IMG/VR virus record: IMGVR_UViG_3300017991_000454
Location: 1-20,357 of that record
DNA: 20,357 nt
Direction: 5' to 3' (one strand)
Source: a virus
The position numbers and the translations under genes were made by a program. Shown piece by piece: positions 6,347-17,033 of this stretch. A model generated the notes under the pieces. That model was not told the origin of the DNA. It worked only from the letters and a program-made list of their open reading frames with translations, and made no database searches. Numbering within the stretch: the stretch's first letter is position 1; each line of letters opens with the position of its first letter.

Positions 6347-6500
6347 ACTGAACGAAAAACAAAAGAAATTCCTGATGGCATTACGGCAAGGTTTATTGCT
6401 GATCGTGGATGCGATTGAATCTTACGTTGGCATGGACATGCGTACAGCAGAAGTGCGCAAGGTTCTGAAGGCGTTGCAAAAACAGGGAAAACGTGTATAA
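6339..6500 (+). CDS. 53-residue hypothetical protein
   Basis: 53 residues from ATG 6339 to TAA 6498-6500. It overlaps the previous gene by 8 bp with the same ATGAATGA junction, and GGTGA (6328-6332) lies 6 bases before the start. The protein is helical and basic: a hydrophobic central helix (FLMALRQGLLLIVDAIESYVGM) followed by a basic helix (RTAEVRKVLKALQKQGKRV). Short helical proteins of this type occur beside head genes in other phages, but I cannot assign a role. A promoter-like pair (6474-6501) lies within its last codons, and a terminator follows at 6539-6573, closing the packaging/head transcript. Confidence 0.7.
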   Translation: MNELNEKQKKFLMALRQGLLLIVDAIESYVGMDMRTAEVRKVLKALQKQGKRV

Positions 6501-6501
6501 T
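6474..6501 (+). promoter_or_regulatory. promoter-like pair at the end of the 53-residue gene
   Basis: TTGCAA (6474-6479) and TATAAT (6496-6501) are separated by 16 bases. Transcription would begin near 6508 and reach the terminator at 6539-6573, giving an RNA of about 65 bases with no usable reading frame. The -35 overlaps coding sequence, so chance occurrence is possible. Confidence 0.35.
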
Positions 6502-6538
6502 GTAATTACCTCTTGGGTTCTCCTTATTATTGGTAGAC

Positions 6539-6573
6539 AAAAAACCGCCTGTGACTCCTTCAGGTGGTTTTTT
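6539..6573 (+). terminator. intrinsic terminator after the portal/minor head gene cluster
   Basis: Stem arms 6539-6551 and 6561-6573 pair over 13 positions (A6, then CCGCCTG with CAGGTGG, one G-U), with a 9-base loop and a T6 tail. The A-rich left arm makes it potentially bidirectional. It separates the head cluster from the moron-like island. Confidence 0.8.
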
Positions 6574-6578
6574 GCGTG

Positions 6579-6594
6579 TGATGAACGTTCATCA
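6579..6594. repeat. 16-bp perfect palindrome, copy 2
   Basis: TGATGAACGTTCATCA, identical to the copies at 3430 and 13128. It is intergenic, 5 bases after the terminator and 46 bases before the -35 of the promoter at 6641, a plausible place for a regulator. Confidence 0.6.
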
Positions 6595-6598
6595 TTCT

Positions 6599-6618
6599 TA
6601 GAACATAATAGAACGTAA
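6599..6618 (+). repeat. tandem 10-bp direct repeat carrying GAAC half-sites
   Basis: TAGAACATAA at 6599-6608 is followed directly by TAGAACGTAA at 6609-6618. Both contain GAAC, the half-site of the neighbouring palindrome (GAACGTTC core). It lies 22 bases before the -35 at 6641. Confidence 0.45.
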
Positions 6619-6640
6619 TATTAGAGATTGTGCAAACCCC

Positions 6641-6668
6641 TTGACTTGTGGGTACAATCATGTATAAT
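6641..6668 (+). promoter_or_regulatory. sigma70-type promoter for the zinc-ribbon gene
   Basis: TTGACT (6641-6646), a 16-base spacer, and a consensus TATAAT (6663-6668). The start site would be near 6675, leaving a leader of about 44 bases before the ATG at 6719. The palindrome and GAAC direct repeats lie just upstream. Confidence 0.75.
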
Positions 6669-6718
6669 ATAGATAGTTGAACGCAGAACACTAACAAACG
6701 AATAAATGAGGTGACCAA

Positions 6719-6886
6719 ATGTATAACGAAAATAATCACATCTATGCTGAATGCCCTGACTGCGGTGAAAACACACTGGTAAACGCAGATAATCCCGAAG
6801 AACTTTACTGCGAAAATGGTTGTTGCGAAGGCGAAATTATCTTTGCACTACACCCCAATTATGTACCCGCAAACGGTTATTATTAG
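6719..6886 (+). CDS. 55-residue zinc-ribbon-like protein (moron-like)
   Basis: 55 residues, ATG 6719 to TAG 6884-6886, with an excellent GAGGTGA site (6708-6714) and its own promoter and terminator. Cysteines C12-x2-C15 (CPDCG), C31, C35 and C36 suggest a small zinc ribbon; the rest is acidic (NPEELYCENG, CCEGE) and ends in a tyrosine-rich tail. An independently transcribed small gene set among late head genes is the classic organisation of a moron, a gene expressed apart from the lytic programme. What it does (host transcription, anti-defence or other) cannot be told from the sequence. Confidence 0.75.
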   Translation: MYNENNHIYAECPDCGENTLVNADNPEELYCENGCCEGEIIFALHPNYVPANGYY

Positions 6887-6894
6887 CCAAACAG

Positions 6895-6917
6895 ACCGCC
6901 GGAAGGCGGTTTTTTTG
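6895..6917 (+). terminator. intrinsic terminator after the zinc-ribbon gene
   Basis: ACCGCC, loop GGAA, GGCGGT (6895-6910), then T6 (6911-6916). It is a perfect 6-bp GC-rich stem starting 8 bases after the stop codon. Confidence 0.85.
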
Positions 6918-6929
6918 TTTAAGATAGTG

Positions 6930-6935
6930 TATAAT
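6930..6935 (+). promoter_or_regulatory. -10 element for the 61-residue gene
   Basis: A consensus TATAAT, 25 bases before the ATG at 6961. The position expected for a -35 falls in the T-run of the preceding terminator and does not resemble TTGACA. The location between a terminator and a gene with a strong ribosome site favours a real promoter. Confidence 0.45.
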
Positions 6936-6960
6936 AAAAATAAACTGTGAGGTGATAAAA

Positions 6961-7146
6961 ATGGTAGTTGTGAAAGAAATTGTTGACGCGACTGGCTTTG
7001 TTGAGGAAAAACAAAAGCAATTCAAGTTTCCTGAATGCGCTGATGTTCGGATTGATGGCGGCAAGCTGTCTTATATGCAATTGATTGGATTAGGCTTGTT
7101 TGATGTTGTTGTTGATCACATTATGAGAAAAAATAATTTGAAATAG
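6961..7146 (+). CDS. 61-residue hypothetical protein (moron-like)
   Basis: 61 residues from ATG 6961, 6 bases after GAGGTGA (6948-6954); an in-frame GTG at 6952 lies inside that site and is unlikely. The sequence runs from a short strand (MVVVKEIVD) through a charged part (EEKQKQFKFPECADVRIDGG) to a hydrophobic helix (YMQLIGLGLFDVVVDHIM) and a basic end. No family recognised. It has its own -10 element and terminator, so it is a second moron-like unit beside the zinc-ribbon gene, with a near-identical ribosome-binding site (both GAGGTGA). Confidence 0.7.
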   Translation: MVVVKEIVDATGFVEEKQKQFKFPECADVRIDGGKLSYMQLIGLGLFDVVVDHIMRKNNLK

Positions 7147-7158
7147 ATCGCAGAAATC

Positions 7159-7185
7159 AAAAAACGCCAATCTAAGGCGTTTTTT
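7159..7185 (+). terminator. intrinsic terminator after the 61-residue gene
   Basis: AAAAAACGCC (7159-7168), a 7-base loop, GGCGTTTTTT (7176-7185): a 10-bp perfect stem with T6 tail. The flanking CAGAAA/TTTCTG extends the symmetry. It may act in both directions. Confidence 0.85.
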
Positions 7186-7264
7186 CTGTTTAACCAACCA
7201 ACCACGCACATACAACCACACAAATGCTGTAACCACACTAAATTCAAAACTGGTGGGCAAATTT

Positions 7265-7294
7265 TTGCATTAGCACTATAAAATATGGTATTAT
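7265..7294 (+). promoter_or_regulatory. promoter upstream of the scaffold/capsid genes
   Basis: TTGCAT (7265-7270), an 18-base spacer and TATTAT (7289-7294). The start would be near 7301. A hairpin (7315-7328) and a terminator (7328-7371) follow at once, so transcripts would either stop as a short RNA or, if the terminator is overridden, continue into the scaffold and capsid genes. Confidence 0.5.
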
Positions 7295-7300
7295 GGTGAG

Positions 7301-7371
7301 TGACAAAAAGGTTGTCCGTCTTTACGGAACACCGCAAACGCAGATCAAATGCGTTGGGCGGTGTTTTTTTA
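7301..7371 (+). ncRNA. predicted leader or small RNA ending at a terminator
   Basis: Predicted only from a promoter (7265-7294) followed after about 7 bases by a structured stretch. It holds a hairpin TCCGT-CTTT-ACGGA (7315-7328) abutting a terminator hairpin. No start codon with a ribosome site lies in it. It may be an attenuator or antitermination leader for the late genes, or a free-standing small RNA of about 70 bases. Confidence 0.3.
7328..7371 (+). terminator. strong intrinsic terminator before the scaffold gene
   Basis: Outer stem AACACCGC (7328-7335) with GCGGTGTT (7358-7365), a small internal loop, inner stem AACGCA (7337-7342) with TGCGTT (7350-7355), and a T-run to 7370. Lying between a promoter and the scaffold start (7412), it could be regulated. 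Confidence 0.85.
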
Positions 7372-7411
7372 TTTTACGTGCGTTCACGATACAACGAAAG
7401 GATAATTGAAA

Positions 7412-8044
7412 ATGTTTGGTAACGATTTGGTCTTTAACAATATGCTGTTTGACGAAGATGGTGGCAGCGGTGGTTCTGATGCTGGTGATGATGCAGGCAC
7501 TACAAACAACACAGATCAGGACAAAGAAAGAAACAAACCTGTCAACATTCCGAAATATCGACTTGATCAAGAGATTGCAAAGCGCAAGGCTTTGGAAGAA
7601 CGATTGAGCAAGATTGAAGAAGAACAGCGCACCGAAGCTGAAAAACGTTTGAAAGAACAGAATGAATGGAAACAGCTTTATGAACAGGCAAACGCAGAGC
7701 TTGAAGAAGCAAAAACAAAGGTTTCTGACTTTGATGCTATGAATTCAAGCATCGAAGAAATTTACCAGAACAGCATCAAAGATTTGTCTGAAGAAGCGGT
7801 TGGCATGATTCCTGAACAGCTTACAACACAACAGAAGTTGCAATGGGTAACGGCACACAAGGCGAAACTACAACGCAAACCCATGCCTAATGTCTCTGCT
7901 GATGGGCGTTCTGACAACGGTGGTGGTGGCGGCGATTATGGGCTGACCCCCGAAGAAATCGCAACTGCACGAAAATTCGGTATGTCGCCAAAAGATTACG
8001 CTTTATCAAAAGATGGAAAACTTGACGAAATTGGAAAAAATTAA
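7412..8044 (+). CDS. capsid scaffolding protein
   Basis: 210 residues from ATG 7412, 9 bases after AAAGGA (7398-7402); an in-frame TTG at 7406 is less likely. Scaffolds direct capsid assembly from inside the prohead and then leave or are cleaved. The layout fits: a low-complexity acidic Gly/Asp/Asn N-terminus (to about residue 42), a long charged coiled coil from PKYRLDQEIAKRKALEERL to about residue 110, a linker, a Gly-rich stretch (DNGGGGGDYG), and a C-terminal helix-turn segment (LTPEEIATARKFGMSPKDYALS). It sits directly before the decoration and capsid genes, the usual place. Confidence 0.85.
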   Translation: MFGNDLVFNNMLFDEDGGSGGSDAGDDAGTTNNTDQDKERNKPVNIPKYRLDQEIAKRKALEERLSKIEEEQRTEAEKRLKEQNEWKQLYEQANAELEEAKTKVSDFDAMNSSIEEIYQNSIKDLSEEAVGMIPEQLTTQQKLQWVTAHKAKLQRKPMPNVSADGRSDNGGGGGDYGLTPEEIATARKFGMSPKDYALSKDGKLDEIGKN

Positions 8045-8530: not shown

Positions 8531-9457
8531 ATGGCTGGAACAATGATTTCTTCTAATTGGGCACGCTCTGTTTTGCCCATCATGCGCAACCAATGGTATC
8601 AGCGCATGCAAGCAACACCATCTGCTGTTATGCAGTTATTTGGTGTTGAATCCTCAAATTCTTCAGTTGAATATTCTGAAGGCATAGGTGATTATGGTCT
8701 TGTGCCTGAATACAATCACCTTGATGACACTGGTAGCAATGCAATCGAGTATGATAAATTCTCCCGGTTGTATGAAACCACATTTACCCACAAGGAATAC
8801 GCCAAAGCAACCAGCATTGAACGCAAACTTGTGGATGACGAGAATTATGGGCTGATCAATCGGCGCGCTCGTATGCTTGGTACTTCATTTGGTCAGACTC
8901 GCGCCAGCCATGCCGCAAGCGTTTTTGAAAACGCATTCTCTGGCGTGCTTGGTAGTGACGGCGTTGTTTTGTGCAGCGCATCTCACCCGAATCGACCTGA
9001 TGACACCAGCACAACTCACAGCAACTTGGGCACTTCCGCATTGTCTGATGCTTCTGTGAAAGCAACCTTGATTGCTGGAAAGAGCATGGTTGATGACCGC
9101 GGCAACCCCCTGCCTGCAAACTATGACACAATTGTTGTGCCTGCCGAACTTGAACCGACTGCATGGACAATCGTCAATTCAATCAATCAGTCTGGTACTG
9201 CTGACAATGATGGCAACTATGTTGGTTCAAAGAACCTGAAGGTTATTACCGAAGTTTGGCTGACCGATGCAGACAATTGGTTCATGGTTGACAGCTCGCT
9301 GTCACAAGATCACCTGCTTTGGTTCAACCGGGTAATGCCTGAATTCGATATTGATGCAAACAGCAATTTCAATCTGGTTGCAAATTATCGTGGATACATG
9401 CGTTACAGCTTTGGCTGGGATGACTGGCGGTTCATTTACGGTCATAACGTGTCCTAA
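8531..9457 (+). CDS. major capsid protein (HK97 fold, Mu gpT-like)
   Basis: 308 residues. It builds the icosahedral shell. Recognised by the segment VVLCSASHP near residues 145-153 with upstream SIERKLVDDENYGLINRRARMLG and FGQTRASHAASVFENAF, all typical of the Mu gpT/HK97-like capsid group, and by the typical end YMRYSFGWDDWRFIYGHNVS. Length is normal; there is no obvious N-terminal delta domain, in agreement with a separate scaffold gene. GGTGA (8520-8524) lies 6 bases before the ATG. A stable hairpin without a T-run follows at 9475-9502. Confidence 0.9.
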   Translation: MAGTMISSNWARSVLPIMRNQWYQRMQATPSAVMQLFGVESSNSSVEYSEGIGDYGLVPEYNHLDDTGSNAIEYDKFSRLYETTFTHKEYAKATSIERKLVDDENYGLINRRARMLGTSFGQTRASHAASVFENAFSGVLGSDGVVLCSASHPNRPDDTSTTHSNLGTSALSDASVKATLIAGKSMVDDRGNPLPANYDTIVVPAELEPTAWTIVNSINQSGTADNDGNYVGSKNLKVITEVWLTDADNWFMVDSSLSQDHLLWFNRVMPEFDIDANSNFNLVANYRGYMRYSFGWDDWRFIYGHNVS

Positions 9458-9474
9458 ACACTGATCTAAACGGC

Positions 9475-9502
9475 GCAGGGTGGGCAATGGTGTTCACCCT
9501 GC
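9475..9502 (+). other. stable hairpin after the capsid gene
   Basis: GCAGGGTG (9475-9482) and CACCCTGC (9495-9502) form an 8-bp GC-rich stem with a 12-base loop, 17 bases after the capsid stop. No T-run follows, so it is not a standard terminator; it may protect the capsid mRNA 3' end or slow transcription. The 144-base gap to the next ATG holds no other clear signal. Confidence 0.55.
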
Positions 9503-9600
9503 ACAAACTAACAACAATCTAAAATTATAGTCTTTTCTTATAGCAGTTAATCGTGGTTGCCGCCACTAAACCCTATAAGAAGGTACTGAAAGGAAAGATT

Positions 9601-9981
9601 ATGGCAACTCATTTTTCTGGTGAAGTAGTATCAACAAACGGTTTCACTGGTGACATCACCGGCGATGTGACCGGCGATGTGACTGGTCAGGTTTTTGGCA
9701 ATGTCACCGAATACACATCCAGTGGCGCAATCGCCTTAACTGACAGTTTCGCGACCTTTAACACGACCAGCGGTTCTGCCGCAATGACTTTGGCAGATGG
9801 AACAGAAGGGCAGTTTCTTGGACTTTCGTTCACCACAGATGGTGGCGATTTGGTTATAACGCCTGCAAACTTTGCGAATGGAACTAGCATCACATTTGCA
9901 GACGCGAATGATTGTGCTTCTTTAGCATTTGATGGAACGAACTGGCACATTATATCAAATGTTGGCGGCACGATTGCATAG
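9601..9981 (+). CDS. small beta-rich structural protein with GDVTG repeats
   Basis: 126 residues from ATG 9601, just after AAAGGAAAG; the frame is open to a GTG at 9553 but that lacks a ribosome site. Residues 13-34 repeat GDITGDVTGDVTGQVFGNVT, coded by a near-perfect 12-bp tandem repeat, a pattern common in phage fibre and decoration proteins where it may form a beta-helical stalk. The rest is beta-rich (GSAAMTLADGTEGQFLGLSF, GTNWHIISNVGGTIA) and resembles a small trimeric fibre head. Probably a virion surface protein; exact place unknown. Confidence 0.65.
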   Translation: MATHFSGEVVSTNGFTGDITGDVTGDVTGQVFGNVTEYTSSGAIALTDSFATFNTTSGSAAMTLADGTEGQFLGLSFTTDGGDLVITPANFANGTSITFADANDCASLAFDGTNWHIISNVGGTIA

Positions 9982-13797: not shown

Positions 13798-14259
13798 ATG
13801 ACTTGTCAAACAAGTAATGCTGAATGGGCAGCCGGTGCAAGGTTGTACATGGGTGATTTAGCAACACCGACTGTGTACACAGAAATCGCAGAGGTGCGCG
13901 ATATGTCACCATTTTCTGCAACACGCGATGACATTGATGTGACCAGCAGAGGAACGAGCGCGAGCAATTCAAGTGGCTGGCGTGAGTTTATCGGCGGTTA
14001 TCGTGACGGTGGCGAATTGACATTTGAGGCTAACTGGCTCATTGGCGATGCAACACAAGACGAAGTGACCGGGTTGCTATACTGGTTTTCCAGTAATGAT
14101 ACACCGCACCCATGGCGCGTAGTGTCACCGTCTGGTTTACGAAAAATGGAATTTTGCGGTTATGTGTCTGGTTTCGAACCGGATTACCCGCTTGAAGATC
14201 GTGCTGCTTTGTCTGCAACCATAAAGATTTCTGGTGCAGTCACCGTCAGTGACGTATAA
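13798..14259 (+). CDS. major tail tube protein
   Basis: 153 residues. Hexameric rings of this protein stack around the tape measure to form the tail. ARLYMGDLATPTVYTEIAEVRDMSPFSATRDDIDVTSRG followed by GWREFIGGYRDGGELTFEANW is typical of the lambda gpV-like tube family (residues 14-80), and a C-terminal strand pair (LSATIKISGAVTVS) closes the fold. AAAGGA with the bases to the ATG nearly repeats the portal site. It stands before the chaperone pair and tape measure as expected. Confidence 0.88.
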   Translation: MTCQTSNAEWAAGARLYMGDLATPTVYTEIAEVRDMSPFSATRDDIDVTSRGTSASNSSGWREFIGGYRDGGELTFEANWLIGDATQDEVTGLLYWFSSNDTPHPWRVVSPSGLRKMEFCGYVSGFEPDYPLEDRAALSATIKISGAVTVSDV

Positions 14260-14281
14260 ACTAGATTAAAAAGGTGAAATA

Positions 14282-14686
14282 ATGACTGGCTCAATCAAAG
14301 ATCAAATTCTTGGCAAAGATGATTTGCACACTAAAGAAATTGAAGTACCTGAATGGGAAATGACAATTCACATCAAGCAGCTTTCAAAAGCGCAGGTAGA
14401 TTCGTTTCAGAGACTTGCTATGAAAAACACAGTGCGCGTGACAGATAATGACGGATCAAAGGTAGAACAGACCGTTGATTATTCCGGTCTTGATGCGTGG
14501 GTTTGTGTTCGTGGAATTGTTGACGAAGATGGCAACCGCGTATTCATGAACAAAGATGAAAGCGCGCTGAAAGATAAAAACCCGAATGCGGTTGGCGCAA
14601 TCGCTGTTGCCATTCTTGAACATACTGGTTTGTACAGCAATCCAGATGATGAAGATGATTTACAGGATAAAACCTTAAAAAAATGA
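14282..14686 (+). CDS. tail assembly chaperone G-type
   Basis: 134 residues, AAGGTG before the ATG. In lambda-like phages two overlapping genes give a short G product and, through rare -1 frameshifting, a longer G-T fusion; both coat the tape measure while the tail assembles. Here G starts DQILGKDDLHTKEIEVPEWEMTIHIKQLSKAQVDSFQRL, a pattern seen in many G-type chaperones, and ends at TGA 14684-14686 directly after a run of seven A. A complete frameshift signal lies across its end. Fusion product predicted: 284 residues. Position between tail tube and tape measure supports the call. Confidence 0.85.
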   Translation: MTGSIKDQILGKDDLHTKEIEVPEWEMTIHIKQLSKAQVDSFQRLAMKNTVRVTDNDGSKVEQTVDYSGLDAWVCVRGIVDEDGNRVFMNKDESALKDKNPNAVGAIAVAILEHTGLYSNPDDEDDLQDKTLKK

Positions 14687-14736
14687 TCGCAAACCCAATG
14701 TTATTGTTTGACTATCGGTTAGCAATGGCATTGGGT
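14664..14736 (+). promoter_or_regulatory. -1 programmed frameshift signal
   Basis: SD-like AGGA (14664-14667), 9 bases, heptamer A AAA AAA (14677-14683; zero frame TTA AAA AAA TGA), 9-base spacer, then a 16-bp hairpin: arms 14693-14708 and 14721-14736, perfect apart from three G-U pairs, 12-base loop. A -1 slip enters the T frame at 14683. Confidence 0.85.
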
Positions 14737-15135
14737 AAAACGATAGAAGAAATCAACCAAATGCAATATGGTGAATATATTGGCTGGTTGGCGTATGAAA
14801 CACTTGAACCGTTTGGTTATAGCGTAGATGAAAGACGATATGCAAACCAGATGCAACTAACGCAGAATTTAGGTGTGAGCAAAAAATCAGACCGAGAGAC
14901 TGCAAAGTCATTTTTCTATGATGGTATCAAAGAAATGAAAAAATGGCTCGATAAAAAGACAAGTGCGAAGCGCAGAGATGAACTGATGAAAACACCTGAA
15001 GGGCGCGAAGAACTGGCAATGATCGAAGAACGCCAAATGGGTGCAATGTTCAGCAGTCAAGGTTTTTCTGTAAACAAAGGTGAGCGTGATAAATGGCAAC
15101 AGGCACTACGGCAGCAACAATTGCGGCGCAGTTAA
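14683..15135 (+). CDS. tail assembly chaperone T extension (read as G-T fusion)
   Basis: 150 codons in the -1 frame from 14683. Most likely read as the C-terminal part of the G-T fusion, which binds the tube protein while G coats the tape measure. The ATG at 14683 (ATGA with the G stop) is poorly placed for independent initiation: the nearest SD-like AGGA is 15 bases away. The start (PMLLFDYRLAMALGKTIEEINQMQYGEYIGWLAYE) has the helical pattern of T-type domains, and the rest is charged and helical. The end overlaps the tape measure start by 43 bp. Confidence 0.8.
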   Translation: MIANPMLLFDYRLAMALGKTIEEINQMQYGEYIGWLAYETLEPFGYSVDERRYANQMQLTQNLGVSKKSDRETAKSFFYDGIKEMKKWLDKKTSAKRRDELMKTPEGREELAMIEERQMGAMFSSQGFSVNKGERDKWQQALRQQQLRRS

Positions 15136-17033
15136 CACTAAACGCTAAAGACTTCAACAAAGGCATTGAAGCTGCGAGCGACAAATCAACCACATTTGCC
15201 AAAAACTTCAAAAACGTTGGCAAATCAATAACGAATGTTGGAAAGACAATGGCGATTGCTGGTGCATCTATAACAGCAGGCATCACCGCGCCTACGGTTG
15301 CGCTTGTCAAACTTGGTGGTGAAGTCGCTGGTATTCAATCAGCATTCAATAGCATGGTTGAAGGTTGGGGGAAAGATGCAGATGAATTTCTAAAACACAC
15401 ACAAGAAGTGTCAAACGGCATGATCAGCAACACCGAAATAATGAAAAACATGAACCTTGCGGCGGCGTTGGTTGGTGATGAATTTGCCCAAACGTTGCCC
15501 GATGCAATGGGATTGTTGCAGAAGGCGGCAGCGGCGACTGGGCAAAGTCTTGATTATATGCTGTCATCTTATACAACAGGTATTGCGCGAGAATCAAAAA
15601 TGATTCTTGACAATCTTGGTTTGTCCATTGATTTGGCGGCAGCAAAAGAAGAATATGCAATCAGTATTGGAAAAACAACGGAACAGCTAACGGCGCAGGA
15701 ACAAAAGATGGCGTTGACGGTTGCGACTTTGGAAGGTCTGAACAAAGCTTATGGCAACATGCCTGATGTGCCTGACCAGACAGTTGCAATTGCCCAAATG
15801 GAAACAGCATGGGCGAACCTGAAAGACACGCTTGGTCTTTTCTTGGCAGAAGCATTGACACCGGCAATTCAGGGGTTGAACGAATTGGCGCAGGATCATT
15901 TACCAAAGATTCAAGAATGGCTGAACAGCATGGATGAAGAAACAAAAAAGAACGTTGGCAGTATGCTTATGCTGACAATGGGACTGGGCGCATTGATGCT
16001 TGTTTTGTCACCCGTTGTGATGGCGATTGGCTCGCTGGTTTCTGCATTTTCTGGTTTGGCTGGTTTGCTTGGTGCTGGTGGTGGTGCAGCAGGCGCGGCG
16101 GCTGGTGGCGGAGGTGTTATTGCTGGTTTTAGTGCACTTGTTGGCGTTTTAACAAGTGCTCCGGTTGTCATCTTGGGCGTTATTGGAGCACTCGGTCTCA
16201 TGGGTGTTGCACTTTCGGAATGGGCTGAAAATAATGAAAATGTTACGATGCACTATGAAGAAACCGCTAAGCGTGTTCAAGAGGCAACTGAAAATAATAC
16301 AGCCTCAATATACAATGCCAATAACGCATGGGTTGAAGCGTATCATAATGGAAATATTGGTATTCAAGAATCAATCAATTCATACTCTGGTGCTCTTACT
16401 GCAATGGCTAATACCACTGATGCAGCCGCAGGAGGTATTTCTGGTTCAATAACTGGAGCTGCCAACGCGACAGGAGAGGCGTCAGAAGGTGCAGTCTCAG
16501 CAATTGGCGGGTGGATTGGCGCACTTCAGGAATTGGCAAAAGGAACAGACGCAACGGTTGCAGGAATGCAAGCGATGGTATCTTCTGCAAAAGCACAAGC
16601 AGCTTCAGCGGCACGCTGGACAGGACTGGCTAATTCATATGCAGGCAGCGGTGGTGCTGGATTACGTTCAGATCAGGGGATTGTGACGCCATATGGCATT
16701 GCTCCAGTTAGCGCATCAAGCAATTCAATTGCAATGTCAATGAGATACGCAAACCGCATGGGCTTTGGCAATCCATTTGCATCTGGTGGTGGCAGCGCGA
16801 CATCGTATCGTGGCGGTGGTGGTAGCACGACATCGTATCGTGGCGGCGGCGGCGGGTATGGCTCTGCTGGCACTGGCGTTGATCTTGGCGGTGGTGGTGA
16901 TGGCACACCCGATGTTTACTTTGCACCAGGTGCAATCACCGTAACTATTCAAGGCAATGCAGATGATACTGACATCCGCAACAGCGTGAAACTTGGCGTT
17001 TGCGATGCGTTGCGTTCAGTTGGATATGGATAG
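15093..17033 (+). CDS. tape measure protein
   Basis: 646 residues, AAAGGTGAG (15077-15084) 8 bases upstream. The protein sets tail length and leaves with the DNA. N-terminal LNAKDFNKGIEAASDKSTTFAKNFKNVGKSITNVGK is typical of tape measures; residues about 60-275 are helical and carry the conserved TTGIARESKMILDNLGLSIDLAAAKEEYA and ALTPAIQGLNELA segments; residues about 290-375 contain strongly hydrophobic stretches (MLMLTMGLGALMLVLSPVVM, VVILGVIGALGLMGVAL). The C-terminus is Gly/Ser-rich with a 10-residue repeat. No peptidase or lysozyme motif is seen. At about 0.15 nm per residue the tail would be near 97 nm, short to medium for a siphovirus. Confidence 0.92.
   Translation: MATGTTAATIAAQLTLNAKDFNKGIEAASDKSTTFAKNFKNVGKSITNVGKTMAIAGASITAGITAPTVALVKLGGEVAGIQSAFNSMVEGWGKDADEFLKHTQEVSNGMISNTEIMKNMNLAAALVGDEFAQTLPDAMGLLQKAAAATGQSLDYMLSSYTTGIARESKMILDNLGLSIDLAAAKEEYAISIGKTTEQLTAQEQKMALTVATLEGLNKAYGNMPDVPDQTVAIAQMETAWANLKDTLGLFLAEALTPAIQGLNELAQDHLPKIQEWLNSMDEETKKNVGSMLMLTMGLGALMLVLSPVVMAIGSLVSAFSGLAGLLGAGGGAAGAAAGGGGVIAGFSALVGVLTSAPVVILGVIGALGLMGVALSEWAENNENVTMHYEETAKRVQEATENNTASIYNANNAWVEAYHNGNIGIQESINSYSGALTAMANTTDAAAGGISGSITGAANATGEASEGAVSAIGGWIGALQELAKGTDATVAGMQAMVSSAKAQAASAARWTGLANSYAGSGGAGLRSDQGIVTPYGIAPVSASSNSIAMSMRYANRMGFGNPFASGGGSATSYRGGGGSTTSYRGGGGGYGSAGTGVDLGGGGDGTPDVYFAPGAITVTIQGNADDTDIRNSVKLGVCDALRSVGYG
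16798..16846 (+). repeat. 30-bp period repeat in the tape measure gene
   Basis: A 19-base unit (CGACATCGTATCGTGGCGG) occurs at 16798-16816 and 16828-16846, giving two copies of the decapeptide GGGS(A/T)TSYRG. It is a flexible, glycine-rich linker and not a CRISPR array. Confidence 0.6.

Follow-up and report, generated by a model that had tools for sequence, protein, structure and literature searches.

Sequence evidence for a lambda-type -1 frameshift joining tail assembly chaperones G and T in an uncultivated phage

The DNA analysed here (the window, a virus record of 20,357 bases) contains a siphovirus structural module, in which the tail chaperone genes G and T are very probably joined by programmed -1 frameshifting on an A AAA AAA heptamer followed by a hairpin, giving a G-T fusion beside G with a lambda-like role. 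A preliminary description had proposed this core reading, which is strongly supported by the protein families, the gene order and the slip sites and hairpins of relatives. The slip site, the frame, the hairpin and their conservation were computed.

Gene order and protein identities

Four genes of the tail region were identified by profile matches:

13798..14259, + strand: major tail (tube) protein, upstream neighbour (Phage_TTP_12, E 3.8e-12)
14282..14686, + strand: gene G, tail assembly chaperone, 134 aa, zero frame (phrog_344, E 1.2e-17)
14683..15135, + strand: T domain, -1 frame, 150 codons (matches to Phage_tail_T and phrog_337)
15093..17033, + strand: tape measure protein, downstream neighbour, starting inside T (phrog_1533, E 1.9e-14)

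The gene order is thus major tail protein - G - T - tape measure. For G, the Pfam matches to Phage_TAC_1 and Phage_TAC_13 were both sub-threshold, and a PDB sequence search with G as the query gave no match; an AGGTG is found at 14272-14276, 5' of its ATG. T matched phrog_337 (tail protein) with an E value of 1.2e-9 and Pfam Phage_tail_T (PF06223) with an E value of 1.8e-5 and 25.5 bits, 0.4 bits below the curated cut-off of 25.9; all four of the close T homologues scanned, the window's among them, matched Phage_tail_T. The tape measure gene overlaps T by 43 nt (15093-15135), and AAAGGTGA precedes its ATG.

The slip site lies at the end of G

The sequence around the G stop contains the following elements:

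14668..14670, + strand: TAA closing the -1 frame just upstream
14677..14683, + strand: slippery heptamer A AAA AAA in the G frame, the sole A7 on this strand, with equivalent heptamers in relatives
14684..14686, + strand: G stop TGA, directly 3' of the heptamer and overlapping ATG 14683

The last codons of G read ...CAG GAT AAA ACC TTA AAA AAA TGA. The in-phase heptamer adjoining the zero-frame stop and the -1 frame open for 150 codons, both given in the preliminary description, were confirmed to the base, the open frame running from 14683 to 15135 (150 aa). Because the -1 frame is shut upstream by the TAA, the shift is confined to 14671-14686, a stretch with no slippery site besides the A7 run. 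Nowhere else on the + strand of the entire window is there an A7 run, and this one falls exactly at the G/T boundary. Together, the heptamer and the TGA create the ATG at 14683 (an ATGA overlap). As a slip site in E. coli, A AAA AAA is weaker than A AAA AAG (PMC5009743).

A hairpin follows the slip site at a usual distance

Downstream of the stop, we found a putative stimulatory hairpin:

14693..14708, + strand: 5' arm, ACCCAATGTTATTGTT (sequence and folding; protein-preserving null, p = 0.0022)
14709..14720, + strand: loop, 12 nt (sequence)
14721..14736, + strand: 3' arm, AGCAATGGCATTGGGT (sequence, folding and protein-preserving null)

The stem has 16 pairs, three being G-U, and is separated from the heptamer by 9 nt (14684-14692), inside the usual slip-to-structure spacing of 5-9 nt (PMC7618472). 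Spacer, stem and loop agreed with the preliminary description; the ViennaRNA minimum-energy fold additionally folded part of the loop and paired AUCG of the spacer (14685-14688) with CGAU at 14741-14744. The 77-nt region downstream of the slip folded at -26.2 kcal/mol, an energy that none of 200 dinucleotide shuffles reached (z = -5.5). Since this region is coding, we also used a null in which the T protein was fixed and codons were redrawn according to the codon usage of this phage; 22 of 10,000 such synonymous resamplings reached the energy of the hairpin (z = -3.6, p 0.0022). The hairpin is strong without being the strongest in the window, as 19 of 6,764 sliding 66-nt windows (itself included) folded at least equally well; its position, rather than its raw energy, is what matters.

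Other identities for this element were examined. Rfam gave no match up to E 1. An intrinsic terminator was rejected: there is no T tract, and no terminator was found in 14200-15200. A DNA-level palindrome or operator is disfavoured because G-U pairs maintain the stems in both the window and its relatives. The loop also contains an exact 6-base complement (CTATCG, 14712-14717) to CGATAG at 14741-14746, just past the stem. A pseudoknot formed by these 6 bp was not supported, with p 0.095 and no conservation in relatives; in addition, its connector of 4 nt is geometrically too short to span a 16-bp stem.

From these features we infer that slippage occurs, at what level, and what the product does in assembly. 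A minority of the ribosomes translating G would arrive at AAA AAA carrying two tRNA-Lys while the hairpin, 9 nt downstream, stalls the ribosome at the mRNA entry. Both tRNA-Lys would then re-pair one base back (tandem -1 slippage, A AAA AAA being read as AAA AAA), and translation would go on as ...T-L-K-K|M-I-A-N-P... in the -1 frame to give a 284-aa G-T fusion. The remaining ribosomes would terminate at the UGA and release only the 134-aa G. By analogy with lambda, the tape measure protein would be coated by many copies of G and few of G-T, with the T portion bringing in the major tail protein.

Relatives carry equivalent slip sites, mostly without an early start codon for T

Single-protein scans of IMG/VR with G, T, the tape measure and the tail tube protein gave no confirmed relatives; searches at the terminase and portal level did yield relatives, the best at 44-56% identity, and these have A AAA AAC TAA with a hairpin a few bases 3'. 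A first T alignment was too diverse for use as a search profile. A T-profile scan collected 80 loci and a genome scan 2 more, and most of them had a canonical heptamer at the expected place. After deduplication, 42 junctions were stop-adjacent (28 AAAAAAC, 9 GGGAAAC, 3 AAAAAAG and 2 AAAAAAA), and in 30 the slip preceded the stop by 18-60 nt. Deduplicating at a slightly different length gave 43 stop-adjacent junctions, the window counted among them. The window is one of the two stop-adjacent junctions using A AAA AAA, and the one in which heptamer and stop make an ATG.

The same arrangement occurs in isolated phages, with a heptamer (A AAA AAC, A AAA AAG or G GGA AAC) 0 or 3 nt before the G stop and T in the -1 frame: Mcat9, Mcat11, Mcat13 and Mcat32 of Moraxella, Psymv2 of Psychrobacter, AbIPP1 of Acinetobacter, IME1369_02 of Morganella, Pm34 of Proteus, and Dubu and phiSASD1 of Streptomyces. 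The records of HK97, Dubu, phiSASD1 and Jflix2 were deposited as frameshift joins. Separately, Moraxella phage Mcat23 (L016) has two T-like places (record positions 7353-7670 and 9446-9697), as if it carried two tail-chaperone modules.

Homology of T (L-I-A-D-P-x-R-x-F...) starts directly after the slip, and 33 of the 43 distinct stop-adjacent junctions lack an ATG, GTG or TTG within the first eight T codons, indicating that T needs the shift. In the closest relatives, the residue aligned with the Met at 14683 is Leu (CTA, from C|TAA). ATG 14683 is therefore best read from the alignment as a by-product of A7 adjoining TGA, though some reinitiation at the ATGA is possible.

A hairpin after the slip is kept in most relatives

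We examined the 66 nt after the slip in the stop-adjacent set under the protein-preserving null. The mean z was -2.26, and 56% of the junctions had p < 0.05; equal-sized stretches elsewhere in G or T gave mean z values of -0.26 to -1.06. Dinucleotide shuffles agreed (mean z -2.18 after the slip versus -0.08 to -0.56 elsewhere). Part of the ACCC...GGGT stems comes from conserved N/D-P and L-G codons, for which the protein-preserving null accounts. Hairpins were strong in Mcat9 and Mcat13, and none was significant in Psymv2 (z -0.35). The preliminary description had named relatives lacking both the A-run and the hairpin as evidence that would count against it; we found the slip heptamer in the relatives and a hairpin in most of them.

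It had also suggested looking for covariation in the stem. In ten near relatives sharing a 16-pair stem, five pairs were altered on both sides, and the covariation score was 0.190 compared with 0.107 in shuffles (0 of 500 reached it), which, coming from kin sequences, is supportive and not a probability; sliding the partner lowered the score. This nearest group pairs in a register other than that of the window, whose stem has no close relative, so the paired changes bear on the group's own pairs and leave the window's register uncovered. The 3' arm is more distal in the window and Mcat9 (A/H-L-G codons) than in the nearest group (R-L-G codons). Across the window and its nearest relatives, the distance from slip to hairpin is kept while the arms differ, a pattern that fits selection for the structure and not for particular bases.

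The upstream AGGA lacks support as a conserved stimulator

One further element was considered:

14664..14667, + strand: AGGA, SD-like, a possible but unsupported stimulator (anti-SD energy -4.1 kcal/mol, p 0.30)

AGGA lies 9 nt before the heptamer (spacer 14668-14676), where it had been described. It is weak, its energy being equalled by chance in 30% of codon resamplings, and no clear SD-like enrichment was seen upstream of 72 slip sites (mean z -0.33, near the codon-resampled background). The AGGA as a conserved stimulator is thus not supported. The preliminary description counted three stimulators and held that they are rarely so plain together. The slip site and the hairpin stood, and the SD-like element lacked comparative support, leaving two plus a possible third; nor is the combination unique, since an SD, a slippery site and a pseudoknot were proposed for corynephage phi16 (PMC5506516). 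In several junctions with the slip farther from the stop (L057, L062, L076, L077, L098 and similar ones), we observed GGAGGA(G) a few nt 5' of the heptamer, mostly explained under the codon null by the local amino acids (e.g. V-E-E-L).

Alternative explanations

Ribosomes that end G at the UGA might instead restart at ATG 14683 and make a separate T, with no need for a fusion. The ATGA overlap is present, the nearby AGGA could help to hold the ribosome, and coupled genes commonly have an SD placed before the upstream gene ends (PMC5009743). Nevertheless, we regard termination-reinitiation as very unlikely: it leaves both the conserved heptamers and the hairpin unexplained, T homology is already present immediately 3' of the slip even at the many junctions lacking an early start codon, and the nearest relatives have Leu at the position of the ATG. 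The AGGA is also 15 nt from ATG 14683, too distant for ordinary initiation, as the preliminary description correctly stated. A frameshift fusion accompanied by some free T from ATG 14683 would be particular to this phage, with its A7-TGA in place of the relatives' A6C-TAA, and only here do heptamer and stop make the ATG. This combination is unlikely, given that no ribosome-binding site stands at normal spacing, that the strong hairpin covering the start region would impede initiation, and that the lambda model contains no free T.

Two further explanations concern the A run itself. RNA polymerase slippage could produce mRNAs with an extra A, and one added A in this homopolymer would join the frames so that G is read straight through T. 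Seven As are, however, short for efficient transcriptional slippage, the run is shorter or absent in relatives (A6C, A6G, GGGAAAC), and the spaced hairpin would have no reason to be there; we therefore consider it highly improbable. That an assembly error misplaced the boundary, or that G and T are really one gene, is barely credible: homopolymer errors are conceivable on this contig, where a methyltransferase gene (1120-1793) is split at an A6 run, yet dozens of independent contigs, and isolated phages as well, show the G/T split at the same position. A programmed -1 frameshift thus remains the preferred reading.

Other features of the window

The DNA methyltransferase is split over two frames, 1120-1551 and then 1470-1793 in the -1 frame. 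Many phage methyltransferases match its N-terminal half. At the break there is an in-phase A AAA AAC (1452-1458), past which the -1 frame continues methyltransferase-like sequence. A homopolymer assembly error, a disrupted gene or a second frameshift could each explain the split. Between the head genes, a run of small ORFs at 6500-7400 includes a near-perfect sigma-70-like promoter (TTGACT-16-TATAAT, 6641-6668) together with a hairpin and T tract resembling a terminator (6893-6912); similar hairpin/T-tract stretches were seen by eye near 6540-6575, 7160-7185 and 7330-7375. This region resembles one moron gene cassette or several.

Two possible junction architectures and their significance

Hairpins differed between the two kinds of junction, with a mean z (dinucleotide shuffles) of -2.18 at stop-abutting sites versus -0.76 at long-overlap sites. 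On balance, we lean towards two tail-chaperone architectures: a stop-abutting one (slip 0-3 nt before the G stop), with a dedicated and repeatedly re-evolved 3' hairpin, to which the window would belong, and a long-overlap one (18-60 nt), mostly without a hairpin. The loci behind this contrast all came from a single search seed, and we found no description of the contrast in the literature searched. It may arise because stop-abutting sites require a stronger stimulator or because they escape dual coding just past the slip; at long-overlap sites, two-frame coding right after the slip may by itself limit structure.

Programmed frameshifting in DNA phages has its best-known case in these chaperone genes, and the present results extend that case to an uncultivated phage lineage. 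With 43 junctions and the protein sequence controlled for, they provide comparative evidence that, in the stop-abutting subgroup, the signal includes a downstream hairpin, and the difference between near and far sites offers a directly testable idea of how phages set the ratio of G to G-T. Gene callers seeing only A7-TGA-ATG would label T an ordinary separate gene.

Comparison with known systems

By the available sequence tests, the junction is a lambda-type G-GT -1 frameshift, which would work alike and belongs there; it is of a known kind and not a surprise. Counterparts of the lambda G-GT system are found in HK97, HK022, P2, L5, TM4 and phiC31. The lambda site itself is not known to have a clear hairpin. 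Shared with lambda are the gene order, the shift near the 3' end of G, the T-domain family PF06223 (near threshold in the window) and, in most relatives, the absence of a separate gene start for T. The lambda slip site is G GGA AAG (PMC7618472), whereas the window has A AAA AAA adjoining the stop and a strong hairpin. In lambda, where G and G-T are made at about 30:1, G forms the coat on the tape measure and T is the part that binds the major tail protein (PMC5009743); two HK97-like chaperone genes shift at 6-7% (PMC3711429).

Acinetobacter phage Loki gp12/gp13 has AAAAAAC directly before the stop of the first chaperone, and a -1 fusion was proposed; the part of that report available to us does not mention a downstream structure (PMC5313236), in contrast to the A7 and computed hairpin of the window. 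For the tail genes of corynephage phi16, an SD-like element, a slippery sequence and a downstream RNA structure were likewise all proposed, but the slip is GGGGGAA and the structure an H-type pseudoknot (PMC5506516), compared with A AAA AAA and a simple hairpin here. E. coli dnaX, an unrelated gene, shares the A-rich heptamer, the downstream stem-loop and the optional upstream SD (PMC5009743, PMC3711429); it differs in using A AAA AAG, in shifting at about 50% to give a shortened product and in having an SD that is a real stimulator. The closest isolated T homologues are those of Mcat9/Mcat13, Psymv2 and AbIPP1, which have A AAA AAC (A AAA AAG in Mcat13) at the G stop and stem sequences that differ from that of the window.
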